From contig JAUPFV010000002.1 in assembly GCA_036936605.1 (NCBI GenBank), positions 267,848,770 to 267,912,769 on the forward strand: a stretch of DNA of 64,000 nt. Reading direction: 5' to 3'. The notes beneath the pieces are model-generated. The model worked only from the letters and a program-made list of their open reading frames with translations, was not told the origin of the DNA and ran no database searches. The position numbers and the translations under genes were made by a program. This document shows, piece by piece, positions 4,101 through 53,878 of this stretch (position 1 is its first letter; each line of letters opens with the position of its first letter). The DNA is from Limnanthes douglasii subsp. nivea. Its lineage: Eukaryota; Streptophyta; Magnoliopsida; Brassicales; Limnanthaceae.

Positions 4101-5262
4101 TGGAAAAATAAGAGAGGGCAGTCTTTCTAACAACAAGTATGTATTGCTCTGGTCTCTTTCTAAGGATGGCAAGTTTAATGTCAGAGATACTATAAATCAT
4201 ATCAGAGCTAAGGGTAACATTACTAGTCTATATGATAAGACTTGGAATGCTGTAACACCTAGGAAATGTTCTTTCTTGTTGTGGAGGGTCCTTCACAATT
4301 GGTTGCCTACTGACAGTGTTATGCAAAAGAAAGGTTTCATGCTAGCTTCGAAATGTGTTTTTTGTAAAAACAGTGAGACTACTAACCATGTTATGGTGCA
4401 GTGTCAGATTGCATGGTCTGTTTGGCAGTACTTCAGTAGCATTTTCAGAGTTCAAATCCAGCCTTACATGTCTGTTCCTCACATCGTTATGCGTTGGTAC
4501 TGGGCTGCTGGCAAGAAGTGTGACATATTCACCATTCTCCGTGCAATTATATTATGGTCAATATGGACTGGTCGAAACAAGAGAAAACTCAGTAACGATA
4601 ACATCAGTTCTAGCTCTATAATCAACCATATCCTTCTGATTCTATCTAGTCTAGACCATGCTAAAGTTTTGAAAAGAAAGCACTGAGGTAGATTTGTTAA
4701 GGAAGCTACTGACATTGGCTGTGTTAACCAGATTAAGCTCTGGAATAAGCCTCTTTTTCTGAAATGGAAGATTCCTAAACATGGAAGATATAAGATAAAT
4801 GTAGATGGGGCATGTACCTTCAATGGAGAATCTGGAGGTGGAGCTCTGATTCGTGACAGTAGTGGCGAAATTGTCTTCGGCATTGGTAGAGTGTATGGGA
4901 AGGGATCGCCTTTGATTGCTGAGAGTAGAGCTCTCTTTGATGGCCTGAGGTTGTGTAATAGGCTGGGTCTGACAATGATTGATGTGGAACTCGATTCACT
5001 GGTTCTTGTGAATCTGATTCTCTATGGTAACACAACGTGGTTTCTGGATCCTTTACTTAAATGCTGTAGAAGTCTCATCAAGCCTGGAATGGTGGTTAGG
5101 CATGTTTTTCGTGAGCAAAATTTGGGAGCAGATTGGGTTGCTAAGGAAGTTCTAAAGCTTAAATCGGATATGGACTTTAGTAATTTGAATGCTCCGTCAA
5201 AATTGAAAGCCATTGTTCTTTTGGAGAAGCTGAATTTTGGCTATTTGAGGCTAATTGATTAA
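1137..5262 (+). pseudogene. LINE ORF2: endonuclease, reverse transcriptase, zf-RVT, RNase H
   Basis: ATG at 1137 opens an apurinic-like endonuclease: NWNARG, the catalytic IQEPF, FGDFNVIS, and the closing SDHCPIV near 1778. After TAG stops at 2151 and 2439 the RT follows in the same frame: STAGPDGFNGEFYK, DFRPISL, FVKGRSIQHSI, motif A with TDMTKDFDKL, GLRQGDPLSLSLF and catalytic FADDFMVF near 3183. A TAG sits at 3519, and a frameshift near 3625-3640 moves the zf-RVT region into another frame (SFLLWRVLHNWLP, CVFCKNSETTNHV). After TGA at 4684, RNase H continues (NVDGACTFNG, AESRALFDGL, ELDSLVLV, ADWVAK) to TAA at 5260-5262. The enzyme would nick and reverse-transcribe at the target, but this copy cannot make it in one piece. 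Confidence 0.93.
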
Positions 5263-6017: not shown

Positions 6018-6317
6018 TGAAACAAACACAAACTGGTATTTGCAACACACACACACAGATGTACACGTTTAACTGAGAGGAGCAAAAAAGAACTTCTTAA
6101 GTCCTTTGAATAAAAGGTTACATACGTTATAAATAGAAACTAACACGTTCAAGACTCCTACATAACTGCAACTACTCCCTATTAACTCTCCACTACTTCC
6201 ACGAAATAATAACGGACACTACGACTTAATCACCCACTTGTACAAGCTGACAACGTCTCTTATTTAAAACAAAATACAAAACATAAAATAAAAAACCAAT
6301 TTAAATTAATTCCAACA
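6018..6317 (-). repeat. Copia-1 3' LTR
   Basis: This is 300 bp. On the minus strand it begins TGTTGGAATT and ends GTTTGTTTCA, so it has canonical TG...CA ends. It matches the right LTR except for an extra AC in the (AC)n run and a few substitutions. Confidence 0.95.
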
Positions 6318-6330
6318 AGCACCTCCTCAA
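6318..6330 (-). promoter_or_regulatory. Copia-1 polypurine tract
   Basis: On the minus strand a purine-rich TTGAGGAGGTGCT directly precedes the 3' LTR, where plus-strand DNA priming is expected. Confidence 0.75.
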
Positions 6331-6331
6331 T

Positions 6332-9300
6332 TTAAATCTGGTTTTGAATCTTCCTGATGCCAAGAAGTGCACGCATCTTTTCGAACTTCACAGTGGCCAT
6401 GGATTTCGTCAAAACATGAGCACGTTGATCCTCTGTTCCAATGTGTTTGATCACGATCTCACCTTTTTCAACGCACTCTCGAATAAAATGGTACCGGATG
6501 TCAATATGCTTAGAACGTCCATGAAAAACTGGATTTTTAGCCAAGTCTATCGCTGACTTGTTGTCTATGTAGAGCACTACAGGACCAACATCAGAATCAG
6601 TAAGTTTACCAAGCAAATTACGCAACCATATGCCTTGACAAGCAGCCGCTATAGCTGCCATAAACTCCGCTTCACAGGATGATAATGCCACACAACGTTG
6701 TTTCTGAGACACCCACGTGATCAAGCTCTCATTTAGGTAGAAAGCCATCCCTCCAGTACTCTTCCTATCTTCAATCTGCCCAGCCAAATCGCTGTCGGAA
6801 TATCCTGACAACATGTTGTTATTGCTTCCCCTTGAATACACCAAACCATATCTCAAAGTACCTTTTAAATACCTCAGAATTCGCTTAACAGCATTGAGGT
6901 GCATCTCAGTTGGTCGTTCCATGTAATGACTGACTATACCAACTGCAAATGCTATGTCTGGTCTAGTATGAACTAGATACCTTAATCCTCCCACAATGCT
7001 TTTAAACATAGTTGAATCAACAGCCTGTCCAGTTTCATCTTTGTGCAGTTGCAACGCTGGTTCCATAGGGTACTTCGTCGGTTTACATTCTGCCATGCCA
7101 CTCTTCTCCAGGACCTTTCGAGCATAGGCCGACTGCTTCAAATTGATGTACTCCTTAGTTTGCTTCACCTCAATCCCAAGATAGTGAGAAAGCTTTCCTA
7201 GGTCAGTCATATCAAATTTCCTGCCCATTTGTTCCTTGAACCTCTGAATTGTTGTTATACTCGAGCCCGTGATCAGCAAATCATCAACATATACCCCAAT
7301 GGTTAAGACCTCTTCCTTCTCCCTTTTTATGTACACAGCATGCTCATAAGGACATTTTGTGAATCCCAAACTTTTCAAGCACTCGTTTAACTTCTCGTAC
7401 CAGGCCCGTGGCGCCTGTCTAAGCCCATAAAGAGCCTTTATAAACTTATAGACCAAATGCTCCTTGCCTTGCTTCACAAAACCTTCGGGTTGTTGTACGT
7501 ACACATCTTCATGCAAGTCGCCATTCAAGAAAGCTGACTTGACATCTAGATGATGAATTTCCCAACCATGATTTGCAGCCAACGCTAATAATAGCCTTAC
7601 AGTTTCCAATCGTGTGACAGGTGCGAACACCTCCTCAAAATCAACCCCTTGTTTCTAAACGTAACCCCTTCGCGACGAGCCTCGCCTTATGCTTTATAAT
7701 TTCACCTTCTGTGTTCCTTTTTAGTTTGTACACCCATTTCAGGCCAATGGGTTTGTGCCTAGGTGGCAATTCCACAAGCTGCCAAGTGCAATTTTTTTCT
7801 ATTGCTTCTATTTCGCTCTCCATAGCCTTCCCCCATGATCTTTCTTGGACAGCTTGTTTATATGTGACTGGCTCCTCCATACTGAGAAACAGCAACTCAT
7901 CTTCACCAAGCTCGATTTCGACTGTATCAGCATAAATGTCGCGCAAAGACCTGAAGCGCGTTGGCACACTGCTACTCCCAGTTTCTGCTGAACTGACTTC
8001 ACTCGACTGTGTTAATGAGGTTGGTGTTGCCTGTGTTGTCTGTGACTCAGTCGAATGAGAGGACTGTACAGGAGTGTTAGGCTCGGTTGAAGACTCCTCA
8101 TTACCGAGCTCTGTCAAAGACTCCTCATTACCGTTTTCTGTTGCTTCCGTCGAGATTACAAAGTCAGCCACCACGAAATGGGTGTGAGTCTCTTCAACTG
8201 CACTGTCATCATTAGCCCATTTCCATGACTTAAGCTCGTCGAAATACACATCTCTGCTAACATGAACTCTGTTCTCTTCTGGTTCATACAGTCGATGTAC
8301 TTTTGTACCAGGCTCTCTTCCAAAATAAACTACTGACTTTGACCGATCGTCCAGTTTCCTTGTATGAATGCCACGCACCTTCATGTAAGCACAACAGCCA
8401 AAAATTCTTATGTGACTAATATCTGGCTTCTTTCCTGACCAAGCTGCGTATGAAGTGTCAGTAGAGAGAGCACGTGTGGGCAGTCTGTTAAGCACATAAA
8501 CAAAGTGTCGTACTGCTTCGCCCCAAAATCTAGATGGGACATGCTTCTCCTTTAATAAACTTGTAGCCATTGACACCACCGTTCGGTTCCTTCGCTCTGC
8601 CACTCCATTTTGCTATGGAGAGTAAGGGGCCGTATATTGTCTCATGATCCCAGCGTCTTCACAAACACTTGTAAACTGATGTGAACAAAATTCTCCTCCT
8701 CTGTCCGTACGCAAGGCTTTAATATTTTCCTCAGAGTCTTTTTCAACAAGACGCTTGAATCTTATAAATGCTCCTAATGCTTCATCTTTGGTTGACAGAA
8801 AATAAACCCACATTGCACGACTAAAGTCACCAACCAAAAGTAGAAAATACCTCTTGCCAGATGGTGTTGATGGTGTGATTGGTCCGCAAATATCTCCATG
8901 CACTAATTCCAGCACCTTGGTTGATCTGTAACTCGATTGTGAAGGAAATGAAGTTCTTGTTTGCTTTGCCATTAAACAGTCCTTACACAATGCCTTGGAT
9001 GCATCATTTTGGGCAGGCCATAAACCATCTTATTCCAAATCATAAGCTTTAATGCATCAAAGTTCACATGGCCTAAGAGAGAGTGCCAGAGCCACGAGTC
9101 CCTTTCCAATTTTGCAAGTAGACAAGTACCCTTGGATTCCTTGGATTCTTCCAGCAAGATCTTGTATAGACGATTTGCTGATCGTCTAACTTTCATCAAT
9201 AGCTTCCCATCCCCGTCATGCACCCACAGAAAGTCACCATGTAACACCACTTTATTACCTTCTTCTGACATTTGTCCAAGGCTAATTATATTGTTGCACA

Positions 9301-9751
9301 GATTTGGAATGTAGAGGACATTGTTAAACACTCTTTCTTCTCCGGTTTTGCAAACAAACGTGATTGACCCTTTTCCTTTAATGCATACCGTTGACCCATC
9401 TCCAAGTTTTACTTCGCCTGTCACGTCTTCATTTATCTGTGAGAACTTTGACCTGTCCCCAGTCATGTGATTTGAAGGGCCGTTGTCTAAGTACCACAGC
9501 TGTGACGTTTTTCTCTCTGTTATATTTCTCTCCAACTTTGGGATGGCCCTTTCTTCATTCACCAACGCCAACTCAGTCAGCTTTTCATCTGATTCTGACA
9601 GTAACAGAGCAGGTTCGTCGTCCTTGATCTGCACCAAGTTTGCTTCACTTCTTTGACTCCGTTCTCGTCGTGGCCTCTTACACTCTATAGCATAGTGACC
9701 CAAAACACTGCAATTAAAACACCTTACAGTGCTTCTATCACGACCAGTACC
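6332..9751 (-). pseudogene. Copia-1 pol: protease, integrase, RT, RNase H (broken)
   Basis: In order on the minus strand: CCHC knuckle; protease with WYLDNGPSNHMTG; GAG-pre-integrase (LWHSLLGHVNF); integrase (VHGDICGPI, RTDRGGEF, NGVAERRNRT); RT (KARLVAKG, DVKSAFLNGDL, catalytic YVDDLLIT); RNase H (YSDSDLAGQ, SSCEAEFMAA, YIDNKSAID). Lesions are a frameshift near 8985-9000, an in-frame TAG at 8613-8615 where SPQQNG is expected, and a frameshift plus TAG near 7640-7665. The final stop is TGA-type at 6332. The protease has Pro where the family normally has Ala after D-N-G. The domains are well preserved, so inactivation was recent. Confidence 0.93.
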
Positions 9752-10477
9752 CTAGAGACCGCGTCCCCCACGTCCTCCTTCTCGATTCCGTTTCATCCAG
9801 TCCTCTCGAGTGAGAAGAAGTTTGTCCTCATTCTTCTCGCGCCTGGACCACTCCTCTTCTGTCAATAACAGTTTGTTTCCCGTAGTCACACTTTGACCTT
9901 TCAACCTTTCCTTATGAGCTTGTAAAGACCCAATAGCTTCTTCGATTGTCATTGATTCTAAATCTCCAAATTGCTCAATTGTTGAAGTAATTTGTAGAAA
10001 TTTAGATGGAACGGCCCGAAGTAGCTTCTTGACAACGTACGACTCCTCCATTTCATCACCTAAGGCTCGGATAGTGGACACCAGTCCGTTGAGCTTCATG
10101 TAGAAAGCGTCGAGTTGTTCACTGTCATCCATACGCAGCGACTCAAATTCCGCCTTCAACGTCTGAATTCTGGCCTTCCTCACCTTATCAGCCCCTTGAC
10201 ACATGACCTTGATGGCTTCCCAGCCATCCTTTGCTGTCTTCTTCTCAGAAATGGATAACAGCATCTCTTCAGGTATGCCTTGGTAGATCATGGCCAAAGC
10301 GACCTTGTCATTCTTCTCATGAATCACTGCTTCGGCATCACTCGGTTCTACTGCTGCCCAAACTCCCTGGGCCTGCATAAAAACCTTCATCTTTAACGCC
10401 CACGCTGTGTAATTCCCCTTAGACAACATTGGATACGTTAGCCCAAAAGATCCAGCCTTGCCTTTCCCCGCGTCCAT
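9752..10477 (-). pseudogene. Copia-1 gag (nucleocapsid), interrupted by TAG
   Basis: ATG at 10477-10475 starts MDAGKGKAGSFGLTYPML. The body is the UBN2-type copia Gag (NYTAWALKMKVFMQAQGVW, AIRALGDEMEESYVVKKLL, LQITSTIEQFGDLESMTIEE). The frame stops at TAG 9754-9752 in a Gly/Arg-rich stretch, then continues in frame into the CCHC knuckle CFNCSVLGHYAIEC and protease. Upstream codons to 10564 only read through the PBS and LTR, so the ATG at 10477 is preferred. The protein is clearly homologous to the Gag of Copia-2, although the LTRs of the two elements differ. Confidence 0.9.
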
Positions 10478-10503
10478 CTGAGAGAGAACACCCTGAATGC
10501 CGT

Positions 10504-10515
10504 GCTCTGATACCA
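10504..10515 (-). promoter_or_regulatory. Copia-1 primer-binding site (initiator tRNA-Met)
   Basis: On the minus strand it reads TGGTATCAGAGC two bases inside the 5' LTR, the usual plant copia primer-binding site complementary to the 3' end of initiator tRNA-Met. Confidence 0.92.
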
Positions 10516-10517
10516 AC

Positions 10518-10815
10518 TGAAACAAACACAAACTGGTATTTGCAACACACACACAGATGTACACGTTTAACTGAGAGGAGCAAAAAAGAACTTCTTGAGT
10601 CCTTTGAATAAAAGGTTACATACGTTATAAATAGAAACTAACACGTTCAAGACTCCTACATAACTGCAACTACTCCCTATTAACTCTCCACTACTTCCAC
10701 GAAATAATAACGGACACTACGACTTAATCACCCACTTGTACAAGCTAGCAACGTCTCTTATTTAAAACAAAATACAAAACATAAAATACAAAACCAATTT
10801 AAATTAATTCCAGCA
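10518..10815 (-). repeat. Copia-1 5' LTR
   Basis: This is 298 bp and nearly identical to the 6018-6317 copy. A minus-strand TATA-like TATTTATAA (plus positions about 10625-10633) is a plausible core promoter for the element transcript. Confidence 0.95.
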
Positions 10816-11123: not shown

Positions 11124-11262
11124 GTAAGTACATGAATCAAAAGCCAAGATATGCTAAGTAGATTTATATCAAGTTTGTGACCACTAAGGCTGCCTTTGGT
11201 TTGTCAACTGTTTCACTAATGCAGTGTTAACTTTTAATAGTTTTCTTTTTATATTATGGTAG

Positions 11263-11497
11263 ATGCGAACAGAGGTAAAGGACTTACTTGGGAGAAAAGA
11301 TATGAGATTATAATTGGTACAGCAGAAGGTTTAGTGTACCTGCATGAGACGTGTGAGATCAGAATCATACATAGAGATATAAAAGCTAGTAATATATTAT
11401 TAGACTCCAGATTACGAGCTAAAATCGCAGATTTCGGGTTGGCTAGATCTTTTCAGGAAGATAAAAGTCACATTAGTACAGCCATTGGAGGAACACT
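11263..11497 (+). CDS. CRK kinase exon (HRD and DFG motifs)
   Basis: The exon starts after TATGGTAG and ends before GTAAGTATTG. It contains the catalytic loop HRDIKASN and metal-binding DFG, both intact, followed by [12 protein letters not shown], a CRK activation segment. Confidence 0.88.
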
Positions 11498-11689
11498 GTA
11501 AGTATTGCTCAGTTCTACTTTTTGGATCTATTAAACTATCAAACCACAATAGATTAACTCTTAAAAGTGTCGATTTTTTATTAGCCTTTGGCCCTTCCAT
11601 TTGAAAGTATGAACTTCTCCAAAAAGAATTCGAATTTTACACATCAATGACTAATCAAACTATTTAAATGTATATGTTATGAATTTCAG

Positions 11690-11840
11690 TGGTTATATGG
11701 CTCCGGAATATCTAGCACACGGTCAGTTATCGGAGAAAGCGGATGTTTATAGCTATGGTGTGCTTGTTTTGGAGATTATTACGGGAAAACAGAACAACAC
11801 AAGCAAAACCTCAGATTATTGGGACAGTCTGGTCACTACT
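11690..11840 (+). CDS. CRK kinase exon (APE motif)
   Basis: The exon starts after AATTTCAG and ends before GTAAGTAAAT. It contains [20 protein letters not shown], the P+1 loop and subdomain IX, intact. Confidence 0.87.
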
Positions 11841-12050
11841 GTAAGTAAATTATAAGATCTTTGCATTTAATCCATGATCGATATTTTTTTGATAACGAGC
11901 TAAGTTCTTTGAGGAAAATGTCTATTTTTTTAAAATGTTTTGAACTTATCCTCCTAAAGTTTAAATTACACAGGCACGCTAGCCTGGTCAGCGATATAAA
12001 TAAAATTAGAAACTCTTACATCCAAAGAACAATTTTAACGTTTCCAGAGT
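11841..12050 (+). other. CRK last intron, 5' part
   Basis: This intron sequence begins with a consensus GTAAGT donor. It is directly alignable to the corresponding intron of the second CRK copy (about 45290-45440). The short open frame at 11861 is not supported as a gene. Confidence 0.7.
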
Positions 12051-12055
12051 TTTCT
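12051..12055. repeat. Copia-2 target-site duplication, left
   Basis: TTTCT abuts the left LTR and is repeated at 16247-16251. The empty site in the second CRK copy (near 45440-45455) reads TTTTCTTCCGC. Confidence 0.85.
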
Positions 12056-12260
12056 TCAAGTCTTAAAACAGATTAATATACACCGTTTTGAGACAACAGA
12101 GATAATACTAAATCTCAGATCTGATTTATTAGGTAATAGAGAGACTATTAAATATTCCAAAGTTGAGTAGACAAAAAGACAGCACAAAGTGAAACGACAA
12201 TGAGAAAGAGTAACGGACAAATTCAAAGGACACAATTAAAGTTTGAGATTAAATGCAACA
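12056..12260 (-). repeat. Copia-2 3' LTR
   Basis: This is 205 bp. On the minus strand it starts TGTTGCATTT and ends AAGACTTGA, so the ends are TG...GA rather than TG...CA. Its borders are fixed by the TTTCT duplication. Confidence 0.9.
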
Positions 12261-12272
12261 CTCTCCCTCCTA
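12261..12272 (-). promoter_or_regulatory. Copia-2 polypurine tract
   Basis: The minus-strand sequence AGGAGGGAGAG directly precedes the 3' LTR. Confidence 0.8.
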
Positions 12273-12316
12273 ATCTCAACCTCGTTTACTCAAGTTTTTG
12301 ACTCCCAATAGTTTCC

Positions 12317-15300
12317 TCATGCTGTTGATGACGTGCAAAATCTGGTTCCACGTCCAGGTCCATCTCTGAGGTGCCAAAGCATCCATGGAACCGCAACTAG
12401 CGCCGAAAGCAATAATATGATCTGAAGAAATTGCTGTCCCCAAAACAATTGATTCTCACCAAGTGCTTCCGTGGGACTCAAAAACATGTAAATCATTACA
12501 TGGTAAAGGTCTGCCTGAGAACCACTACACCACTTGAAAATGATGAGAAGTGAAAGATACCCAAAAAGGCTGTTAAGGAAGATCACTTGTGGCACAAACT
12601 GATACTTTATATCAATTGAGGAGCTAGTAAATCGTGCATTGAAGTAACTTAATAAAATTCCAACGTTCATCTGCACAACACCCAGCAAGATGGATATCTT
12701 CATTTTAAGAGAGTTCAGAAAAGGCAATTCCGTCCGACTCCCACGCCAACTGGGATCCACGCCAAATGGATATGCATCCTGATATTTGACTAAGCCAGTG
12801 GAGTAGGCATCACTACAGGTACTATCTCGACATTTGTAAGCAGATCCACCAAAGATATGAAAAGGAACAAAGAAAAATTTATTATAGATGAGCCCACAAT
12901 AAATTGAAAACAGTGTTATCAAAAGTAGACAATATCGACCACCGAATAGCATCTCCATGAAACTTCCATGTTTCTGTGTACTGAGCTTACTTTCTCGAAC
13001 TAGAAGGAATAATTCTCCTAACAACAAACGTATTCCATGACCCCAGTCTCCAAACATCACGGCAAAAAGAAACGGGAATGTGATAACGGTGAACACTGCA
13101 GGATTTGCCTCTTGATACCTCGCGACATCATAGGCGTCAACGATTTCTTGAATTGCATTTGTGAACTTATTTGTTCTGAAAAATGTAGGAGGTGATTCCA
13201 CTGCATCCATTCCATGAAATAGTATCCCCACTTGCGAGTTGCTGTCAAAAGTTGCACGTTGTAGTGCCTCCTGAATCTGAACTTTTGTAAATATAGGACA
13301 CCAGTCTTCTCCAACAAGACAATTTTTGGTAACATCAAAGTTCAGCATATTTAATGTATCGTATACAGCCTTTTCCCTTCGTACCATGGTCATCCACCTT
13401 GTTAGATGGTACCCAATGGATGTAAGGGCTTTATTACGATGACGAGTTCCAGCATCCAGAGTGGCATCCAACTCAGAAAGTAGAGACAAAACTTCTCTAG
13501 TTATTTGCCTCTGCTTAGTTATATCTTCTGGCACAGGGTAGCAATTCGCCCCAAATGCTTCACAAATTTTCAATATTTTTGTTCTAGCCTGCTCTCCAGA
13601 GAAAAAGACTACAAATACAGTTTTATCAACCATGTCCAGTGAAACAGGATCCATGATCTCTTCATCTGCAGGTGCGTGATTGAAAAGCATATTACCTCTT
13701 GTTGCACGGAACAACATCCTCTCAAACCTCAGACTCTTAGAGCTGCTTATAATTCCACTAATAAATCTTAATCCTGACTTATCTGAAGGCCTCATTTCCT
13801 GCTCGAGCAAAGATGATCCCTCAATATAACCACCATTTGAGAACACATTCTCATTTAGTTCTGTTTTTTCGCCAACTGAATGGGAATTGCTTGATACAAG
13901 AAAGCCACATGCCTTTTGCAAAACTATTTTAAACTCAAGTAGCTCATTATATGTTTCTTGCAGTTTTTCACTATTAGAATTCATTTCAATTAGCCCGTGC
14001 TCATGATCAGCAAGTCGTATCTCTAACTCTTCCAATTCAAGATCAGGTTCCATCACAGGAAGTAAGGATAAAAGACCAGCTTTTCCGATTTGATCTTTGA
14101 AAAATCGCAGCTTCCTAATGCATTTCCATACATCAGTTAGATTCGGGTTGTTGGCTGGATCAACATTTAAACACGCATGAAGAATATTAACAACTGAATC
14201 AAAAACTTCAGCAACTTTTGTTTCCGAGAGTAAACCGACTCTATCCATCATACCCTTACTTGAACAAACAGAACTTAAACAATCATCTTCACTTCCTTTT
14301 GCAACAATACGATTTATGGTATCAACAAGTTCACCAACAAACTCTTTACCAAGAAGAAGTCTATACATAATACAACAAACTAACCAAACATCAGAGCTGA
14401 ACCCAGCTGAATACAGAAGAACATCGTCTTCTACGTCAATTCCTTCTTTCTGTAGCAACTCGAGCAATACCTTGGGGCTAATTAAAATCTCATTCTCTAG
14501 CAACTCAATCAGCATGACATCCAATTCCGAAAAACCAATTCCTTCTACCATCTGGTGCTTAGACATGAGAGCCATGGCTTGATAATTGACGTGTCCAAGA
14601 CGGGCATGCCACAATCTCGTGATGTCATCCGCTTTAGTCATCAGGCATTCCTGTTTGTTAGTCTCAATAATAATTTTGTAAAGTCGATTAGCAGATCGTT
14701 TTACCTTCATCAATAATCTGTCTTTGTTGTCGTAGATCCTCAGAAATTCTCCCTTGAGTTCCACATTATTACCTTCTTCAGAAATCTGTCCCAATGATAT
14801 GATGTTATTACGTATACTAGGTATATAATACACCTCTTGCAGCATCTTTTCTTCTCCATTTTTGCACAGTAATATCACAGTGCCCTTTCCTTTTATCTCG
14901 ACTTTTGAACCATCTCCAAAACGCACTACACCAGATATACTCTCATCCAGTTCTGCAAACTTTTCTTTAAAACCTGTCATATGACTGCTTGCACCATTGT
15001 CCAGGTACCAGACATTTGATTCGCCTGCACATTCTCCACGCCTTGGAAGTTGAGTAGATAGCAGTTTGTCCTCATTCAGGAGAAGCTTTGACGAGTCTTT
15101 ATCATGTTTGGCCAAGAGTAGGGCCATTTCATCATCTTCCATCGCAGCCAAATTCGCCTCCGCTTCTTGTGTTTCCTTGTGTTTCCTTGGTTTCCTGCAT
15201 TCTGAGGCGAAGTGACCATAGATATTACAGTTGAAGCATTTGATAACACTCTTGTCAAACTTTCCACGGCCTCTCTGCCTTGTGGATCTGTCACCACTGT

Positions 15301-15991
15301 TTCGCCTCAGCCATTCTTCACGCGTCAATAGAAGCTTTTTGTTGGCTCCTTCTCGTTTAGCCCATTCCTCTTCTGTCAACATGAGTTGAATCTCCTTCGT
15401 TTCTGTCCTTCCTTTTACTCGTTCTTCATGTGCCTTGAGTGAACCCACAGCTTCTTCGACAGTCATGCTCTCGATGTCTCCAAATTGCTCCAGTGTTGAA
15501 GTTATCTGTAGGAATCTGGCAGGGACAGCACGCAGAAGTTTCTTTACGACATATGATTCTTCCATCGTTTCCCCCAAAGCTCGAATATTTGTAACGAGGC
15601 TATTCATTCTCATGTGAAAATCTTCAAATTTTTCATTGTCACCCATATTCAGCATTTCGAATTCAGATTTTAGGGTTTGAATTCGTGCCTTCTTTGCTTT
15701 GTCTGCACCTTGGCATAAGGTTCTTATCATATCCCAGGCGTCCTTCGCTGTTCCTTTGTTCGCAATTGAGAGCAATACATCTTCGGGAATTGCCTGATAC
15801 ACCATTGCTAGCGCTATCTTATCTGTCTTCTCTTCGACAGCAACATTGGGATCTTTTGGCTCTACTGCATTCCAGACCCCTTGCGCTTGCATATAAACTT
15901 TCATTTTGATAGCCCAAGCCGTATAATTACTTATATTTAGCATTGGGCAGCTCAAACCGTACGAACCTCCTTTTCCTTTGTTCACCTCCAT
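12317..15991 (-). CDS. Chimeric polyprotein: copia Gag-protease fused to kinase-like and V-ATPase subunit a fragments
   Basis: The frame is a single open one of 1224 codons from ATG 15991. Approximate residues are: 1-245 copia Gag (NYTAWAIKMKVYMQAQGVW, ALGETMEESYVVKKLL); 252-265 CCHC knuckle CFNCNIYGHFASEC; protease motif with D331 in WYLDNGASSHMTG; about 450-485 GAG-pre-integrase LWHARLGHVNYQ ending MVEGI; 486-628 kinase-like C-lobe piece; 629-1205 V-ATPase subunit a piece; about 19 residues of out-of-frame tail. Integrase, RT and RNase H are missing. The upstream TTG-initiated extension to 16045 only translates the PBS. The long frame with no stop contrasts with the many breaks in neighbouring elements and suggests recent formation or retained translation. 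Whether the protein is made, or cleaved by its own protease, is unknown. Confidence 0.93.
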   Translation of the reverse strand: MEVNKGKGGSYGLSCPMLNISNYTAWAIKMKVYMQAQGVWNAVEPKDPNVAVEEKTDKIALAMVYQAIPEDVLLSIANKGTAKDAWDMIRTLCQGADKAKKARIQTLKSEFEMLNMGDNEKFEDFHMRMNSLVTNIRALGETMEESYVVKKLLRAVPARFLQITSTLEQFGDIESMTVEEAVGSLKAHEERVKGRTETKEIQLMLTEEEWAKREGANKKLLLTREEWLRRNSGDRSTRQRGRGKFDKSVIKCFNCNIYGHFASECRKPRKHKETQEAEANLAAMEDDEMALLLAKHDKDSSKLLLNEDKLLSTQLPRRGECAGESNVWYLDNGASSHMTGFKEKFAELDESISGVVRFGDGSKVEIKGKGTVILLCKNGEEKMLQEVYYIPSIRNNIISLGQISEEGNNVELKGEFLRIYDNKDRLLMKVKRSANRLYKIIIETNKQECLMTKADDITRLWHARLGHVNYQAMALMSKHQMVEGIGFSELDVMLIELLENEILISPKVLLELLQKEGIDVEDDVLLYSAGFSSDVWLVCCIMYRLLLGKEFVGELVDTINRIVAKGSEDDCLSSVCSSKGMMDRVGLLSETKVAEVFDSVVNILHACLNVDPANNPNLTDVWKCIRKLRFFKDQIGKAGLLSLLPVMEPDLELEELEIRLADHEHGLIEMNSNSEKLQETYNELLEFKIVLQKACGFLVSSNSHSVGEKTELNENVFSNGGYIEGSSLLEQEMRPSDKSGLRFISGIISSSKSLRFERMLFRATRGNMLFNHAPADEEIMDPVSLDMVDKTVFVVFFSGEQARTKILKICEAFGANCYPVPEDITKQRQITREVLSLLSELDATLDAGTRHRNKALTSIGYHLTRWMTMVRREKAVYDTLNMLNFDVTKNCLVGEDWCPIFTKVQIQEALQRATFDSNSQVGILFHGMDAVESPPTFFRTNKFTNAIQEIVDAYDVARYQEANPAVFTVITFPFLFAVMFGDWGHGIRLLLGELFLLVRESKLSTQKHGSFMEMLFGGRYCLLLITLFSIYCGLIYNKFFFVPFHIFGGSAYKCRDSTCSDAYSTGLVKYQDAYPFGVDPSWRGSRTELPFLNSLKMKISILLGVVQMNVGILLSYFNARFTSSSIDIKYQFVPQVIFLNSLFGYLSLLIIFKWCSGSQADLYHVMIYMFLSPTEALGENQLFWGQQFLQIILLLSALVAVPWMLWHLRDGPGRGTRFCTSSTA
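12377..14107 (-). other. Transduced V-type H+-ATPase subunit a fragment, intron-free
   Basis: About 577 codons match plant vacuolar H+-ATPase 100-kDa subunit a (VHA-a). Visible anchors are RFFKDQIGKAG, LRFERMLFRATRGNM, KILKICEAFGANCYP, ESPPTFFRTNKFTNAIQEI, FPFLFAVMFGDWGHG, LFSIYCGLIYNKFF, TELPFLNSLKMKISILLG, VIFLNSLFGYLSLLIIFKW, GSQADLYHVMIYMFLSP and LGENQLF. The family is about 820 aa. This piece spans roughly residues 75-650: most of the cytosolic N-domain and the first membrane helices. It lacks the N-terminus and the C-terminal membrane part with the arginine essential for proton transport. Plant VHA-a genes have many introns and none is present, so capture was from mRNA. The intact donor gene is not in this window. 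Confidence 0.92.
14108..14539 (-). other. Transduced protein-kinase-like C-lobe fragment
   Basis: About 143 codons between the copia pre-integrase region and the V-ATPase piece resemble the end of a kinase-like domain. SPKVLLELLQKEGI is followed by GFSSDVWLVCCIMYRLLLGK (subdomain IX pattern S-D-V-W), then LHACLNVDPANNPNLTDVWK, like the subdomain XI pattern C-L-x-x-D-P-x-x-R-P. The consensus Arg before Pro is replaced by Asn in this piece. It is not derived from the adjacent CRK, whose sequence here is different. The parent gene was not recognised. It is open throughout and in frame at both junctions. Confidence 0.7.
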
Positions 15992-16027
15992 CGTTAGTGA
16001 AACAAATACGTCTGCTAAGACCTTCAG

Positions 16028-16039
16028 GCTCTGATACCA
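16028..16039 (-). promoter_or_regulatory. Copia-2 primer-binding site
   Basis: The minus strand reads TGGTATCAGAGC just inside the 5' LTR, complementary to initiator tRNA-Met. Confidence 0.9.
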
Positions 16040-16041
16040 AA

Positions 16042-16246
16042 TCAAGTCTTAAAACAGATTAATATACACCGTTTTGAGACAACAGAGATAATACTAAATC
16101 TCAGATCTGATTTATTAGGTAATAGAGAGACTACTAAATAGTCCAAAGTTGAGTAGACAAAAAGACAGCACAAAGTGAAACGACAATGAGAAAGAGTAAC
16201 GTACAAATTCAAAGGACACAATTAAAGTTTGAGATTAAATGCAACA
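16042..16246 (-). repeat. Copia-2 5' LTR
   Basis: This is 205 bp and matches the 3' LTR except for three substitutions. It has the same unusual GA terminus next to the PBS. Confidence 0.9.
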
Positions 16247-16251
16247 TTTCT
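16247..16251. repeat. Copia-2 target-site duplication, right
   Basis: TTTCT abuts the right LTR and is identical to 12051-12055. Confidence 0.85.
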
Positions 16252-16517
16252 TTCGCTGGATTATAAGTCTTTTGCGGTAAAGTGTTTACTTAAAGTAACA
16301 GTTTTAAATTTCATCGCGATGTGAAGCATGTTTTAGTTTGTCTAATTTCAAAACACCGAATTACACAAGTAACTTTGTCGCTAATGGAAGTAAAGTTTGA
16401 AACTTTATATCATGAGTTTCTGGAATAAGTTTGTTTGGTGAAAGTTCTGAACACTATCTCATAGTTTAATCCAACATTTGTTAGGTTTATCTAATTTATG
16501 TTATTGTTTAAAACCAG

Positions 16518-16843
16518 GTATGGAAGTATTTCCAGTCTGAACGAATCGAGGAATTGTACGATCCAAACCTGATGTTAAAAAACTGTAATCTAAGCAAAAA
16601 CAACATCAAAAGAGGGATTCAAATCGGGTTATTATGTGCCCAAGAGAGTCCCTTGCTGAGACCACCAATGTCTAAAGCACTACTTATGCTGACCAATAAA
16701 GATGAGCATCTTCCTTCACATACGAATCGGCTTTCATGGACGAAACAAAGATGGAACTTGGCGATGACTATCCGGCTTTCCGAAAGAACGATTCTTCTGA
16801 TTCTGTTGCTACCATCTCGAAAAGTTCTTTTTCTGCTCGATGA
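16518..16843 (+). CDS. CRK last exon with 1-bp deletion near C-terminus
   Basis: The exon starts after AAAACCAG. It reads through LRPPMSKALLMLTNKDEHLPS in the right frame. The frame holding the family-like tail (MDETKMELGDDY ... SKSSFSAR then TGA at 16841) is shifted by one base, which implies a single deletion around 16725-16738. Confidence 0.8.
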
Positions 16844-16922
16844 CACTTTGAGAAGTTTTTATATGGTGTCGATATGTCTCGATCATGAATTGTTTTCAGT
16901 CATTAGTTGTTGGTTCTGCTAA

Positions 16923-17289
16923 CTAGTTTTTGGTGTAACTTGGAGAAGTAATATAAATTTTAGACCATAAATTTTAGTTGCTAGTAGAGCCAACAAAACA
17001 ACCGAAGATCTTTTGATTTAAAATCAAGCGTTCGATTTTGATATAGAGATATTAGTGTAGGAACTGAATGAACATAGTTTGAACATTAAAAAAGAAGATT
17101 AAATTAAATAAAAATAGTGATCATCATTTTATATATATATATTATTAAATTTTATAATTTTAATAAAATAATAAATAATAAACATTATATTAATGCAAAA
17201 AAATTAAATTACAAAATAAATATTATTTTTTATTTTCAAAAAACTTAAATTTATAGTAAAATAAAATAAAGTACATTTTAACATAAACA
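16923..17289. other. Downstream of CRK: AT-rich spacer
   Basis: The first ~170 bp align with sequence downstream of the second CRK copy (from about 46376). The rest is AT-rich (TATATATA at about 17133-17145) and no gene is visible. Confidence 0.6.
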
Positions 17290-18010
17290 TACAATACTAT
17301 CGATCATGTTGCATAATCCGTATCTAGTTCGACTTTAGACATGTATTTGTAATTCAGGATGCATGAGTTTGGACATTGAATGATGAGCTAGGTCCAGTGT
17401 TGTTTGACGGATCAAAGTTGACTTTTTACGAATTTTGTGAATATTAATCTCATCCATCATGAACTATCATGCTATGTAAAATAATGCATACCTTCATATA
17501 TTATTTAAGACATTGAGATCCCACGTCCCAATTTGTTGAGGAATAATTGCAAAGTGAGCATGTAAAAATCCAAATGCATGTTCCACATTCTTCTTGTATG
17601 TCTCTTGTCTGTTAGTAAACTACTTAGTTTTGTTATCTTGGGGAATTTAAATCGTCTGGATGAATACGGTCCACTTTGGATGGATTTTGTCAACAAGATG
17701 GTAACCCATATTATATTGTTAGCCCATCATAGTGTAGTTCACTGTCGGGGGCGGCACCAGACTATGTAATATATTTATTTCGTTCAAAACACAATGCAAC
17801 CCAAAAAACATCATATCCATAAATTATAGGAAACCACTACCTCGAGGATAAATGTTGTTGTGTCCTTGTGTCCATTAGTAAATTGTTTGTGCCAAGCCTT
17901 CTGAAAATTCTTCTATGACCAATGCATTCACTCAATATTTCCAAGCATTCCCCCGAAACCCCAATCCTGACCAACTTGTAGTAACCTCTGCAAATCGCCC
18001 ACATTTGGAT
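17290..18010 (-). pseudogene. PIF/Harbinger transposase (ALP1/HARBI1-like) C-terminal part
   Basis: Reading the minus strand with frame changes gives a DDE-nuclease Harbinger transposase: a G-M-L-G stretch with MHW, AWHKQFTNGHKDTTT, ILEVVVSYDLWIWH-like sequence, a YNMGYHLVDKIHPKW block, KRHTRRMWNMHLDFYML (the family's ...CRKDVERAFGVLQ region) and a C-terminal MIVHD-like block. Such enzymes excise DNA transposons with a Myb-like partner protein. The N-terminal half is missing because Copia-3 is inserted at 18010/18011. Stops and frameshifts make it inactive. The same broken gene is repeated at 47290-48145. Confidence 0.8.
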
Positions 18011-18994
18011 TGTGAAAGTATGATTTTGACTTGGTTGAGCAAAACATAATTAATTAGGTGCTATTGATGAATATGCGTAATCTCATTTGAGACATCAACT
18101 GTATATGCCTAAGAATTGATAAGGCATCAGTTGATTCAGTTAAAATATTGGTTGCTTCAGTTTGGAAGCCTTTGTTAAAGCCGAAAAAGTGTTTATACCA
18201 GAGTGAAACAATATGAATCATTGAGTGCTTCAGCTAGGAAGTCATGGGTCAAGCCGAGAAGGTCTATCAACTAGGAAACCTATTGCAAATGCATTGGTTA
18301 CTACAGTTGGGAAGACATTGGTAATTCGAACGAGGTCATGAGTTTGGGGTTTTTTTAGACAAGGCGAAGGCTGTTTCAGACTGAATTACTACAAATGAAG
18401 TAAAGTCTACACTAACCAAGAGGTTCGTAGTCTAAACTTGAGCTGTTAAGTTGACAGGTGGTATAAAATATCAGTTACAGTGGTTAAATCAATCTATTGT
18501 TACACCTGATTCAGTTAATAATTGTTATAAAAAAATATTTTTGCTGAGGAGTTTGTTACATTTTATTGAGGAGAGAAATTGTCACCAAACATCATATATA
18601 TTACTCTTTAGACTTTGAAGAAGCTGACAAGACTTTGATAGGGTGTGCAACATAGATAGAGAGATAGAATACTTAATAGATTGGAGAGAAATCTTAAAAG
18701 AGTATGAATAGTGAAACCTGTATTTAGAATTTTTGTAAACGTTTCATTTTTCTCTGTTATATCCAATTTGTAAATTGTTGTTACTATTGAAAAACTATAG
18801 GAATGATATTCCTTGTGGCTCATAGTGGATGTAGGCAAGTTTCTGAACTAGTATAAATCTTTTTATTTAAAATTTCTCTTATTCTATTTTTAATTTGTTA
18901 AGTTTAGTAGAATTGCTACATGTTTCGTGACATAATTCTTATAATGGTCTATTTGATACCTGAGTTGATCGAATAGAGCTTCTATAAAGTGTCA
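18011..18994 (+). repeat. Copia-3 5' LTR
   Basis: It starts TGTGAAAGTA inside the Harbinger gene and ends AAAGTGTCA. It is alignable along its length with 48146-49089 and its beginning with 26339-26505. Confidence 0.8.
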
Positions 18995-18998
18995 TGGT

Positions 18999-19010
18999 TG
19001 GTATCAACAC
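18999..19010 (+). promoter_or_regulatory. Copia-3 primer-binding site
   Basis: TGGTATCAACAC is a slightly decayed version of TGGTATCAGAGC. The second copy has TGGTATCAAAGC at about 49094-49105. Confidence 0.7.
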
Positions 19011-19019
19011 CTGGTTGTG

Positions 19020-19449
19020 AAGTGATTCTTGTAGCTGAAATGAGACTAACGGAGTTCAAGATTGAGAGTTTTAACAGAAAATGAGATGTTGGAATCTGAA
19101 AACAACGAATGCGAGCAATCATAGTTCAACAGAAGGTTGCTCAACCCTTTCAATAACCTTCATGAAATATTGTCTGAAGATGAGAAGTATGAAATACTCA
19201 AAACTTCTTACATAATGATCATTATATATGTGAGTAATAATATGTTGAGGCAAATCTCAAAATAGAATACAACTGCTGGAGTCTGGAACAAACTGGAGAA
19301 CTATATATGACAAAGTTCAGGATAAATCAAATCTATTTAAATGCCATTTCTTTTGGTTTTAAGATGTTGAAGGACAATTCTCTTGATAAAAACCTTGATG
19401 AACTCTCCCAAATAGTGATCGATTTGGAAAGCATCAGTGATGAGATTGG
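19020..19449 (+). pseudogene. Copia-3 gag, 5' part
   Basis: Decayed copia Gag in shifting frames: MRAI near 19110, AGVWNKLENYI near 19275, and an S-I-S-D-E-I-G-D-like end at the LARD insertion. The frame resumes after 22994 with VILLNSLPYTYEHLKDII. Confidence 0.7.
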
Positions 19450-19825
19450 TGATGGTAAAAAATATTGGGAGGATAAAATTTGAAAATCTTTTAGTTGGTT
19501 TGTATTTAATATATTAATAGAGAGTAGTGAGGGAAATGAGGTGCTTATATTTAATATTTTAATAAATAAATATCACCCATTTAATGTTGTTGGTTGGGGT
19601 ATTTATATTTATTCTAAGATCTGTGGGTCGTTCGGGTTAGATCTTTCATTTGGGTCAATATATGAGCCCCTAAGCCCATAGTTTAACGTGCTAGACACAT
19701 AGTTGAGTCATTGATCCACTTAAGTTATTGTTCAACCATTGAATCTTATTATTTCTGTCTAAATTTCCCATTTGGATAAAATAACTATTATCATGGTATA
19801 CCTCTAACGATATCTGATCCGATCA
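19450..19825 (+). repeat. LARD 5' LTR
   Basis: This ~376-bp repeat is shared with 22620-22994, including TTTAACGTGCTAG and CTTAAGTTATTGTTCAACC. Confidence 0.8.
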
Positions 19826-20242
19826 TATAGCCCCCTTAGCTCTTTCAAAAGATCTTTGGAAGAGCTATTTATAATAAGTAATGTCAGATTCGTTGCCAAA
19901 GTGAATCTGGGGGGTTAATGAGCATCTCAAAGGTTGTAACTTTTTAAACGACTCTCTTTTACACATGTCAAGTGATAATTGGACCTACTAGCCCTTTTTT
20001 CTAGGTCTTTGTGTCTACACAAAGAATTAAAGGAGATACATTTAATAGCCCTTAATCATGGTTAGATGATTCATTTCCCTTAGGTAAAGCACTCAAGTAC
20101 TTTTCAAACTATATAAATGTGATTTTTCACTGTTTTTTTATTTCTAGTGTGAGAAAATATTTCAAACTTTGATTCTTGATAGAGAAAAAAACTTTAATCT
20201 CTCAACTTATTTTTAGCTCTTCTATTTTTCTCTTAAGTTTGT

Positions 20243-20629
20243 ATGTTTATGACGAGAACTGTCTTAGTCAAAGAAGGTTGGTTCAATCTATCCAAGTTAG
20301 AAAAGGAAAAAAGAAAGGCTAGAATCGATGCCGGAATACCAGCTTCAACTGATGGACTGATTGTGCAACAGTTTCCAGAACCATATATGAGTTCATCATC
20401 TCCCAATCATTATTTGTTCCCAGAAAAATCCTTTTTTCCCAACCTTTTGCAACCTCAGACACCTACTCATTCAATCGAGAAACCTTCCATAAAAAATAGA
20501 GACATTAGCAGTCGTAAACCTCATTCTCCCTTTATAGCTATGGGGTCAGACGTAGAAGAAAACAAACCTCAAAGGATGACCAGGCTTTTTAAGGAAAAAC
20601 CTACAACTCCATCTGCAAAAGAGACATAA
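20243..20629 (+). CDS. LARD N-terminal ORF, unrecognised
   Basis: The frame has 128 codons from ATG. The protein starts MFMTRTVLVKEGWFNLSKLE, with a Lys/Arg-rich segment (KEKRKARID) and a Pro/Ser-rich remainder. No catalytic domain is visible. It lies inside the nested LARD and is probably the N-terminal exon of its Transposase_28-type protein. Function is unknown. Confidence 0.45.
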   Translation: MFMTRTVLVKEGWFNLSKLEKEKRKARIDAGIPASTDGLIVQQFPEPYMSSSSPNHYLFPEKSFFPNLLQPQTPTHSIEKPSIKNRDISSRKPHSPFIAMGSDVEENKPQRMTRLFKEKPTTPSAKET

Positions 20630-21124
20630 AAACCCCATTCAGGTTCTTATTGATGCTACCAACCCATACATATAAGAGGGTTCAAACCCATCAACTTCAC
20701 CCATGGAGCCCCCTAGTGTTAAAAAAAGGGTTCTAGTGTTAAACCTAGTGACTAGTCAGAAAACTGGCCATAGGTAATGAGGACAAAATGGAATTGAGCA
20801 GGGAGGATACTCCATTGGAAATATCTGGCCAAACAGGTGACATTAGTGCAATTCGGGAAAATAAAGACAAAGTTAGACCACCAGACTCCCGAACCGCTTC
20901 CGGAGTGCCTTGTGGGGCATATTTGGCATAATTTATCTAATTTTAGTGTTAAATACATACTATCTCTTCAAAGAATCTCCTATGTGTATACCCATACACT
21001 AAAGTTGGACCAAATTTGGAAAATGTGGGGTTTTTTAGTCTATTAAAGTAAAGATTCATATTCTTGAAGAGATTCTGATAGATAGCAAAGTTGGGGAGTT
21101 AGTGGTATATACCAAAGTTCTTGA

Positions 21125-21480
21125 TTAGGGCCTCAAGTTCTCTTTGGATCCAGAGATAGTAAGGTACTTCCACTTGGTGAGGTTATGCCCAAGCCAATTA
21201 ACTCTGAACGCATGGTACACACTATTGGCCGATATCATAGCTTCAAGGCTGTCAAAGACTCTGATGTCTATGGAACAGTTCCAGTTGTTGTCAATTTGTG
21301 TCGAGATCATCATATCCCCTTTCACCACTTCAACATGGGGAATGGTTATAAGGTCATCAATGATCTATTGGAGGCTGATAAAACCTAGAGAAATAAGTTC
21401 CTCTATACTAGTGGTGTTTGGGAGAATGGAAAGAAAATTACGTCCAAGGGAAACCCAAGCTTATTAACCAGATATTGGAA
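21125..21480 (+). pseudogene. Transposase_28-like (putative gypsy-type transposon domain) remnant
   Basis: The frame beginning near 21128 reads G-L-K-F-S-LDPEIVRYFHL, then PSQLTLNAW, the pattern (GLRFPL...F...PxQLxPNxW) of the plant putative gypsy-type transposon domain. A frame change is needed, after which FHHFNMGNGYKVINDLLEAD and a further block follow. A decayed relative is on the minus strand at 31380-32103. This domain is common in non-autonomous plant LTR elements; its function is unknown. Confidence 0.5.
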
Positions 21481-22619
21481 AAGTTCATGTAAATATCGTC
21501 TGAATGTCTTTAATTATGTTTTGACATTATTTTTCACATCAAATTTTTTATTCACATCGGATTTATCTTGTAGTGTTCTCAAAGATATTATCACAATATG
21601 TGGAAGAAGGGAAAACCACTTTTACCAAACTGCACCTGTGGGCTACAGAAAAATAGGGTTTTGCTTTCCACAATTGTTTTGCTGCAGGGAATATAGTAAG
21701 AGCCCATTTCTGGAATACAAGCTAAACCAGGTAACTCTCATAGGAATAATTTAGCAGCCCTTCCTCCATCTGTTGTTATCATTAAAAGGACTAAGTAACG
21801 TGGTGGCAATCTCTATTTACCATCCAGGAACAGGGCTCCTAGCCATCTTGATAAGATGATGAAGAAGGATAAAAAACATGGTGATGCATCTCAACAGTTT
21901 TCCGATGTGGGTAGTTCAAGACCTCCAGATGAAATTAATGCTGCTTTGTTAGAGGTTGCTGTTGTTATTGTAGTTGAGGCACGAAAAGACACTATACTCT
22001 CCAAAGATTAAGAAAAAGAAATGACATAAGAGAAGCAAATAGGGTAGTGATAAGAGGGCAAGAAAGAAGAGAAAGTTGTCATCGGTTTGGATATAATCTC
22101 TTATCTGAAGTCATTCCCCTACTATTTCTACTGAAATTCCTTCCCAGTAAGAGGTATATGTCAATTCTTCTTCCCTAGTGTTTCCTACTGCTGACCAACC
22201 TTCTGCTGAAGGTGATGTTAATCTGGATGACATATGAAACTTGTACTTTAATGAATTTGACAATGATGACGTTAACAAGACTTTCCCCCAATCTACCACT
22301 ATAGCTAATGTAGTGAGATATGTTGGTGAATATTTTAAAGTGTCCAATGAGCATGATACCTTGGGCTATGCAGTCTTAGGCTACATAAGGCCAATAGTTG
22401 AATTGGAGAAGTCGGTCGGAACTTAGGTTAAAGACATCGTTTCCTTTTAAACTGAAATCAAGGCCTGATGGATTCCACCACGGCCGAACATAACAAGGTA
22501 AAAACCTTGGGCAAAGAAAATTAACAAATTAGTGATGATTTGGAGCAAGCTAAATCTGATCGTAAAAAGTCACAAACTAGCTATAACAAACTGCAATCCC
22601 ATAATGGTCGCCAATCTTT

Positions 22620-22994
22620 TGATGGTAAAATATATTGGGAGGCTAAAATTGGAAGATCTTTTAGTTGCTTTGTATTTAATATTTTGATAGAGAGTAGTGA
22701 TGGAAATGAGGTGCTTATATTTAATATTTTAAGAAAATTTCCAACCCATTTAATGTTGTTGGATGGGTATTTATACTTTTTATGGTAACCATGGACCGTT
22801 CGGGTCGGATATTTCATTTGGGTAAATTCTATGAGCCCTTAAGCATGTAGTTTAACGTGCTAGGCACACAGCTGAGTCATTGGTCCACTTAAGTTATTGT
22901 TCAACCATTGAAATTTATTCTTTCTGTCCAAATTACTCTTTCAGATAAAGTCTGTATTACCATGATAGACCTTCAATGATATCTGATTCGATCA
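22620..22994 (+). repeat. LARD 3' LTR
   Basis: This ~375-bp repeat is the partner of 19450-19825. The Copia-3 gag frame resumes just after it (AACTCATTACCTTATACATA). Confidence 0.8.
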
Positions 22995-24600
22995 GAGATC
23001 ATTGATGAAGATCATGTAGTGATCTTGTTGAACTCATTACCTTATACATATGAACACTTGAAAGATATTATCTATTACAACAAATAAACATTGTGAACAA
23101 ATAAGTTGGAACCCGCAATTAGATCCAAAATATTGGAACTCGTGTAGTGTTTAAGGGTTTGGATTTATGGTAATAGTCATGAATCTTTAAACATTACAAG
23201 GAGATAAGAGAAAGATACTAATAAAGTAAGAAGAAAATTTATATCAAATTCAATAAAGAAGTTTGATAAGTCCAAAATTAGATGTCAGTGTTGCAAAAAC
23301 CTGATTCATGTGAGGAAAAAGTGTCTCGAACAACTAACAATGCAAGATAATTATAGATCAAATAAAAAGCATGTGTATGTTTCTTCTGAATGATATGAAT
23401 CTGTAAAGGTTCCGATGCACTTTTCAGATAAAGGATGAAATGAATGAATTCTGTATTTTGGATGTTCATTCCATATGAGCCCACATAAGGACTGGTTCAA
23501 CTCATTTGAAGATAATAGTAGAGATACTGTGTTATTTGGCAATAATAAGGCTTGCAATATAGTTAGAATCAAATATGTGAAGATTTGAATATTTGATGGA
23601 TGTCATCGGATTCTGACGAATGTGAGGTACGTTTCCGATCTGAGAAGATAAATAATTCTCATTGGTATATTGGAAAACTTCGGTTGTTTTATCAAAGTTG
23701 AGAATGGTTACAAGAAATGTTTTAGATTTGACATGATCTAGATGATATGGTAAATCCAATGATCTCAATTCCTTGATTGGTGATACTGTTTTGGGCAAAA
23801 TAGCTAGCTTGTCCGAAGGATCGATTGAGGGTACAACCCTATGAAATAGGAGGCTGGGGTATGTAAATGAGAATGGATTATTTAAGTTGAAAAGCAAGGA
23901 CTGTTCAGAATAGACAAATTGACTCGCTTGGAATTTGTTTAATCATGTGTGTATAAAAAAAGTAGCAAGTCAAGTTTGCACAATCCAAACATACAATAAC
24001 TGGAGCTTTGACTACATATATGTTGATCTTTAAAGGCATGAAAGGTTCAGTCTCATAGAGGCACTAGATTCATTTATTCAATCATTGATGATTACTAAAT
24101 GAAGTTGTAAATTTATCTAGTAAATTTTAAGGGAAAATCTATTGACATGATCAAGAAATTAAGGATCATGGTTGAAAAAAAAGTTGTTAAAGAAGTAAAG
24201 AAGTTTAGGACGAGCAATGGTCTTGAATTATGTGCAAATTAATATATCGATTACTGCAAATTAACATGGATTGCTTGACATAGAACTGTACAAGACACTC
24301 CATAACAAAATGGTGTTTTTAAATAATGAACATAACCATTGTTGAAAGGGTGAGTTACATGTTAGTAACTGCTAAGTACCCAAGACATTTTTGTGTTGAA
24401 TCGATAATGAATGCATGTTACCTTATAAACAAATGTCCATTTATTACGATTAGCTTAAAACTCCCACAAGAAATATGGTACGGGAAACCTTCAAATTATT
24501 ACAATTTGAGAATGTTAGGTTGTATTTTTTATGCACATATGAAACATAACAAGTTGAAACAAAGAGACACTTGAGATTGAGGTAAAGTCACATGGATAAG
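22995..24600 (+). pseudogene. Copia-3 gag end, protease and integrase remnants
   Basis: In broken frames: LLNSLPYTYEHLKDI (Gag C-terminus), a knuckle-like C-Q-C-C-K-N region near 23285, FHMSPHKDWFNSF (region after the protease active site, about 23470), FDGCHRILTNVRYV, FRTSNGLELCAN and RTVQDTP..QNG (integrase, about 24210-24315), and VERVSYMLVTAKYPRHFCVE through QEIWYGKPSNY (integrase C-terminal side, 24340-24510). Many stops. Confidence 0.8.
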
Positions 24601-45277: not shown

Positions 45278-46059
45278 TGGACTCAGAAACGATATAAGTT
45301 CTTTAAAAAATGTCTATTTTTTTAAAAATGTTTTGAACTCATCCTCGTAAATATTAAATTGCACAGGCACTCTAATCTGGTCACCAAAGTAAATAAAATT
45401 AGAAACATTTACATCCAATTTTTTTTTTAATGTTTTTATAGTTTTCTTCCGCTCAAAAGCAAGTCTTTTGATGTAAAGTGTTTACTTAAAGTAACATTTA
45501 AATTTCACCGCGTAATTTAATGATATGAAGTATGTTTTAGTTTGTAAAATTTAAAAACACCAAATTACACAACTAACTTTGTCGTTAATGCAAGTAAAGT
45601 TTGAAACTTTATATCATAAGTTTCTGGATATGTTTGTTTGGTGAAAGTTCTGGACACTAGCTCATAGTATAATACAACATTTATTTGCTTGGTCTAATTT
45701 ATGTTATTTTTAAAGCTAGGTATGGAAGTATTTCCAATTCAAACGAATCTAGGAATTGTACGATCTAAATCTAATGTTAAAATACTATAATTTAGGCAAA
45801 AATAATGTCAAAAGAGTGATTCAGATTGGGTTACTATGTGCTCAAGAGGGTCAATTGCCGAGACCATTAGTGTCTAAAGAACTACTTATGCTAACTAATA
45901 AAGATAAGCATTTTCCTTCACCTACTAATCTATACTATCCGACTTTCTGAAAGAAGGATTCTTACGATTATGTTACTACCATCTCGAAAAATTCTTTTTA
46001 TGCTTGACGGAATTTTGAGAAAACTTTATATGGTATCGATGTGTCTCGATCATAAAAAA

Positions 46060-46375: not shown

Positions 46376-46604
46376 TGCTAATTAGTTTTTCCTGTAACTT
46401 TGAGAAGTAACATAAATTTTATGGCATGTAAAATTAAGTTTATAGAGAAACTTTTACACATATTTATTTTGGTAAGATTTTATAGCGGATTAGTTGCTAC
46501 TAGAGCCAAGAAAACAGCCGTCCGACCAGGATAATTGGGAAAGGTCAAACATATTTGAACCGCCTATATCACAGTAGTAGTAGTAGCACGTAATTCGAGG
46601 GACA

Positions 46605-53848: not shown

Positions 53849-53878
53849 CCCACTCATTTTGCTGATCTTACAGAGTGT

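Follow-up and report, generated by a model that had tools for sequence, protein, structure and literature searches.

A copia LTR retrotransposon of Limnanthes douglasii subsp. nivea that probably acquired V-ATPase subunit a coding sequence at the RNA level

The open reading frame (ORF) of the maize LTR retrotransposon Bs1 includes part of gag. In the parts of PMC13317346 consulted, Bs1 is described as carrying segments of three host genes, and abnormal template switching is given as a route of gene capture. A mass survey counted 672 genes captured by LTR elements in rice and 1,343 in sorghum, with host gene sequence lying within full-length elements and protein-kinase domains over-represented; the sections of it consulted give no join-by-join anatomy, and the word ATPase is absent from its main text (PMC3726574). 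Transduced genes are usually in the sense of gag and present in one or a few copies, according to the sections seen of PMC7264820. In Triticeae LTR elements, the consulted part of Sabot and Schulman (PMC1950507) attributes the fusion of two parent elements to abnormal template switching, whereas the fusion considered here is with cellular sequence. The locus described below resembles Bs1, as the consulted parts of PMC13317346 portray it, in being an LTR element with several host fragments and a chimeric gene that contains a proton-pump fragment, so the comparison with Bs1 made in an earlier note on this DNA was apt. It differs in its donors, here vacuolar VHA-a1 and a kinase-like gene, and in having one frame of 1,224 codons with both 5′ joins in native frames. 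We found no capture of V-ATPase subunit a by an LTR element in the literature searched, mostly titles and the beginnings of abstracts, and no match to six peptide patterns among viral contigs.

The 64,000-nucleotide stretch of contig JAUPFV010000002.1 that was analysed (the window) contains, at 12056-16246 on the minus strand, a copia LTR retrotransposon of 4,191 bp (Table 1). The LTRs, target-site duplication (TSD), primer-binding site and polypurine tract of a Ty1/copia element were all present, as had been claimed from the letters at the outset. The two LTRs, whose starts lie 3,986 nt apart, differed at 3 of 205 positions (K2P 0.0148). They start with TG and end with GA, or with TG if the TSD is read as 6 bp (TTTCTT, borrowing one base of the LTR end), as against the usual CA; the primer-binding site is presumably of the initiator Met tRNA type. 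When the host flanks were aligned to a paralogous intron, the left flank matched up to window position 45447 (81% over 163 columns) and the right flank from 45443 (84% over 492 columns), so that the two alignments overlap on the paralog by 5 nt, the same TTTCT that flanks the element on both sides. Because this overlap equals the duplication, the paralogous intron is read as the empty site, and since a host paralog in the window carries such a site, the borders of the element are real. The element lies antisense within an intron of a receptor-like kinase gene, between exons at about 11690-11842 and 16519-16730 (limits by eye). The receptor-kinase region is duplicated in tandem (11246-25125 versus 43987-51752, 80-91% identical in the blocks shown), and the insertion is in one of the copies. 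At the substitution rates used for dating LTRs, 1.3e-8 and 6.5e-9, the LTR divergence corresponds to 0.57 and 1.14 My, respectively. A scan of the LTR for promoters and terminators, with bacterial models applied to a plant LTR, returned 1 site against 0.9 expected.

Table 1. Features of the copia element and its empty site, in window coordinates
Feature	Position	Strand	Remarks
5′ LTR	16042..16246	-	205 nt, TGTTGC...CTTGA
3′ LTR	12056..12260	-	205 nt
TSD copy TTTCT	12051..12055	+	5 or 6 bp
TSD copy TTTCT	16247..16251	+	
Primer-binding site TGGTATCAGAGC	16028..16039	-	just inside 5′ LTR
Polypurine tract AGGAGGGAGAG	12261..12271	-	directly before 3′ LTR
Unoccupied site, single-copy TTTCT	45443..45447	+	paralogous intron in the window
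Single ORF, 1,224 codons	12317..15991	-	Gag ATG at 15991, stop at 12317
Copia part: Gag, CCHC knuckle, protease/beta-barrel region, start of GAG-pre-integrase domain	14525..15991	-	
Kinase C-lobe-like segment	14117..14524	-	motifs ISPKVL, SDVW...YRLLLG, CLNVDP...DVW
VHA-a1 segment, in frame	12377..14116	-	residues about 71-655 of PDB 36qx chain a
VHA-a continuation GTSEMDLDVEPDFARHQQHEE, out of frame	12313..12375	-	~20 codons; residues 679-698 of PDB 36qx
AGCATGAGGAA, dual reading	12313..12323	-	11 nt; VHA-a (..HEE) / copia pol (SMRK..)
Pol C-terminal remnant SMRKLLGVKNLSKRG-stop	12276..12323	-	last ~15 codons; by eye

The ORF runs through Gag, a zinc knuckle, the protease region and the start of a GAG-pre-integrase domain into a kinase C-lobe-like piece and then VHA-a1, in agreement with the order first proposed. 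With residues counted from a TTG upstream of the Gag ATG, Pfam returned a copia Gag (Retrotran_gag_2, 6e-22, residues 48-214) and a zinc knuckle (zf-CCHC, 6e-5, 268-285), followed by Pol_BBD (1e-26, 346-425), gag_pre-integrs (3e-10, 454-507) and V_ATPase_I (7e-191, 643-1224). Integrase, reverse transcriptase and RNase H, thought from the start to have been replaced, were absent among the nine Pfam families listed for the ORF at E≤10, in a search whose filters remove most matches above E about 0.1. The element thus lacks the set of enzymes in copia order that marks an autonomous element, and since pol survives only as a C-terminal remnant, it is a defective derivative. The copia part was 55.5% identical over 490 columns to a second copia of the window, and this homology ends at MVEGI, which places the start of the captured sequence at about 14525. 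The second copia (6047-10815, minus strand) has LTRs of 271 bp with 5 mismatches, as opposed to 205 nt in the VHA-a-carrying element, and shares with the latter the core of the primer-binding site and a Gag that is 65% identical over 229 residues; unlike the VHA-a-carrying element it retains pol, which, as judged by eye, lies together with gag in several open stretches interrupted by frame breaks. The second copia immediately precedes kinase exons that run from about 10935 and apparently belong to the same receptor-kinase gene. Elsewhere in the window, by eye, non-LTR (LINE-like) ORFs resembling an endonuclease and a reverse transcriptase occupy 55-5262 on the plus strand, and a degenerate CAT/CAC-type repeat with a histidine-rich ORF of 127 codons (53853-54242) is followed by repeats of ~190 bp to about 55131.

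The VHA-a part, about 580 codons, was colinear with plant subunit a1 (PDB 36qx) over residues about 70-655, with internal alignment gaps of at most 2 residues and without intron-like insertions, which upholds the original argument from the absence of introns to an RNA-mediated capture. The sequence is eudicot-like. Among the matches listed, the closest VHA-a1 was maple P0088 (84.0% over aligned columns), followed by maple P0089 and cacao P0005 (83.8% each; 83.7% over 582 by BLAST for the cacao protein), and no VHA-a1 more than 84% identical to the element's copy appeared among the best 120 of 3,406 matches. Lupinus P0087, which headed the matches listed, was rejected as a chimera, being a VHA-a1 with an internal duplication. 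The last membrane helices of V-ATPase subunit a hold an essential arginine. The element's copy is not a complete subunit a that includes these helices: it lacks the first ~70 residues and everything past ~698, and its frame is shifted at 655, so that the description 'N-terminal two thirds' held approximately but was slightly off at the ends. FastTree initially grouped the copy with Tarenaya (support 0.93); upon removal of Tarenaya, the copy moved to a Euphorbiaceae group (support 0.55). Because of this shift, and because the copy shares one rare state with Tarenaya versus three with Jatropha, we treated the Tarenaya affinity as long-branch attraction and rejected it. An extra residue near SARxxHEE, which the copy shares with Tarenaya and Orobanche (2 of 97 matched sequences) and with PDB 36qx, is a weak sign of affinity; the pattern left 64 of 161 sequences unmatched, and Ulmus, among those of the 64 that were inspected, also has the residue.

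The piece between the copia part and VHA-a is likely kinase-like. It spans residues 508-643 and carries ISPKVL, SDVW...YRLLLG and CLNVDP, which we take to be APE-like, subdomain IX-like and subdomain XI-like, respectively. Pfam aligned it to positions 175-256 of the 263 in the Pkinase profile, the C-lobe end, at E=0.083 with a score of 12.7 bits (cut-off 31.7), and 29 of its 30 weak sequence matches in the PDB were protein kinases, of few kinds (TTK, PLK, NEK7, CDKL3). A single-sequence AlphaFold model of the piece alone was poor (mean pLDDT 51.1), and with this model as the query none of 34 fold-search matches was described as a kinase. The blastp comparison proposed for both host pieces, productive for VHA-a, gave no match at E≤10 for the kinase piece in a set of 405 candidate proteins, 385-1,225 residues long; a search over the kinase/VHA-a join yielded no kinase-only match among 1,877 candidates of 683-2,173 residues. 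The receptor kinases of the window were rejected as the source, every other tblastn match having an E of at least 1.4. Of the two host genes originally proposed, VHA-a is well supported as transduced, and the weakly matching kinase piece is likely a second captured host coding sequence.

The 3′ join was more complex than had been thought. After VPWMLW the ORF departs from the VHA-a frame while the DNA continues as VHA-a in another frame; the continuation matched PDB 36qx over 21 residues (E=0.19), a hit that was the only one listed and lay where it was expected, and aligned with GTSE(M/F)DL(D/E)VEPDSARQHHEEF of many plants. About 68 nt (23 codons less one base) would have been lost before this out-of-frame stretch. 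The pol remnant resembles, by eye, the sequence KMRALLGIRKIQNQI-stop with which pol ends in the second copia, and the stretch that can be read both as VHA-a and as pol is a candidate template-switch microhomology. As far as sequence can tell, these overlapping homologies are the best direct trace of the mechanism. The earlier note had let VHA-a end with the ORF and missed both the frameshift and the retained pol tail.

We consider it highly probable that the element is a non-autonomous copia LTR retrotransposon formed through RNA-level capture of host sequence, and RNA-mediated transduction of a host gene by a copia element is well supported. The host sequence is in gag sense and in place of pol rather than beside it, and by eye the internal joins show neither poly(A) nor an inner TSD. 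For VHA-a, spliced host coding sequence thus lies in gag sense inside the LTRs, as in Bs1, and we read the element as a young, non-autonomous, Bs1-like transduction. The absence of introns, the gag sense, the replacement of pol between copia ends and the overlapping 3′ join fit template switching. In this model, reverse transcriptase in the virus-like particle would exit the copia RNA close to the 3′ terminus of pol during minus-strand synthesis, at the stretch shared with VHA-a1 mRNA (AGCATGAGGAA), and would then copy VHA-a1 back to about codon 71. At or near AGGAAGCTG it would either switch to the mRNA of a kinase gene or read through an already fused transcript, and it would return to a copia RNA within the GAG-pre-integrase region. 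The product would keep the LTRs, primer-binding site, Gag and polypurine tract without integrase, reverse transcriptase and RNase H, and would have integrated antisense in the receptor-like kinase intron with enzymes supplied in trans by an intact relative. Three switches in one round would be many, and stepwise formation is equally possible.

The RNA-level capture is compatible with an unlikely variant in which a kinase/VHA-a transcript already fused by the plant, through read-through, trans-splicing or a prior chimeric retrogene, was captured once. The two pieces abut and share one frame, and the failure to find the kinase donor as a separate protein among the 405 candidates points the same way; however, none of the 86 proteins with E≤0.001 among the 1,877 candidates is a kinase/VHA-a fusion over the join, nor does any of these 86 match the kinase piece at E≤1. 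Similarly, the best 120 of 3,406 matches include no annotated chimera over the join and carry the V_ATPase_I domain alone in precomputed annotation. That host cDNA was inserted or mis-joined within an ordinary copia copy, by rearrangement after integration or in the assembly, would agree with the single known copy of the element, but we regard it as very improbable: the insert replaces the pol enzymes, both 5′ joins keep the frame, the 3′ join has overlapping homology, and by eye both poly(A) and an inner TSD are lacking.

Domestication of the chimera, as argued for maize Bs1, with an ORF that is translated and kept by selection, is also improbable in our judgement. It would account for the 1,224 open codons and for both 5′ joins being in native frames (a chance of 1/9 for random joins and a correct kinase reading), but not for the frame-shifted 3′ end or for the changes in VHA-a. 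To count the latter we fetched 161 proteins, of which 121 passed a length filter, and removed 17 gapped or identical rows, leaving 105 rows including the element's copy. The copy was altered at 11 of the 237 positions that do not vary among the 104 natural VHA-a1 rows; in leave-one-out comparisons, natural rows had a mean of 0.63, a median of 0 and a maximum of 6 such changes. Before gapped rows were removed the copy had 8 of 192, including one that lies immediately outside VHA-a, and natural rows had at most 4 except P0056 and P0051 (22 of 216), which were later removed or cleaned of gap effects. Some of the changes may predate the capture. Using the excess changes as a clock, in a model with a transition weight of our choosing and indels left out, neutral evolution would have produced 1.4, 2.2 or 3.1 stops in the whole ORF for 5, 8 or 11 excess changes (probability of zero stops 0.25, 0.11 and 0.05), over 0.8-3.5 My at the two rates above. 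Since only about 1.4-3 stops are expected, the open frame does not count as evidence for function or selection and is unsurprising after so little time, and an argument for selection from ORF length was rejected. The open frame speaks neither for nor against functional domestication.

Given the transduction favoured here, the fused ORF probably has no role itself and is a young passenger. It would be a long shot that the ORF is expressed and that a Gag/VHA-a membrane protein interferes with the V-ATPase or brings Gag particles to it; if true, a small amplified copia family would carry a dominant-negative pump subunit directed at the host. Gene capture by LTR elements is a known but seldom dissected process, and the element changes nothing known in kind. 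It adds a clear, well-preserved case with new donors, a recent and probably RNA-level capture in which the empty site is present and one join still shows the overlap expected from template switching. If the donor genes were available, one could read directly how many switches took place, in which order and by what sequence rules, a detail that mass surveys do not give.
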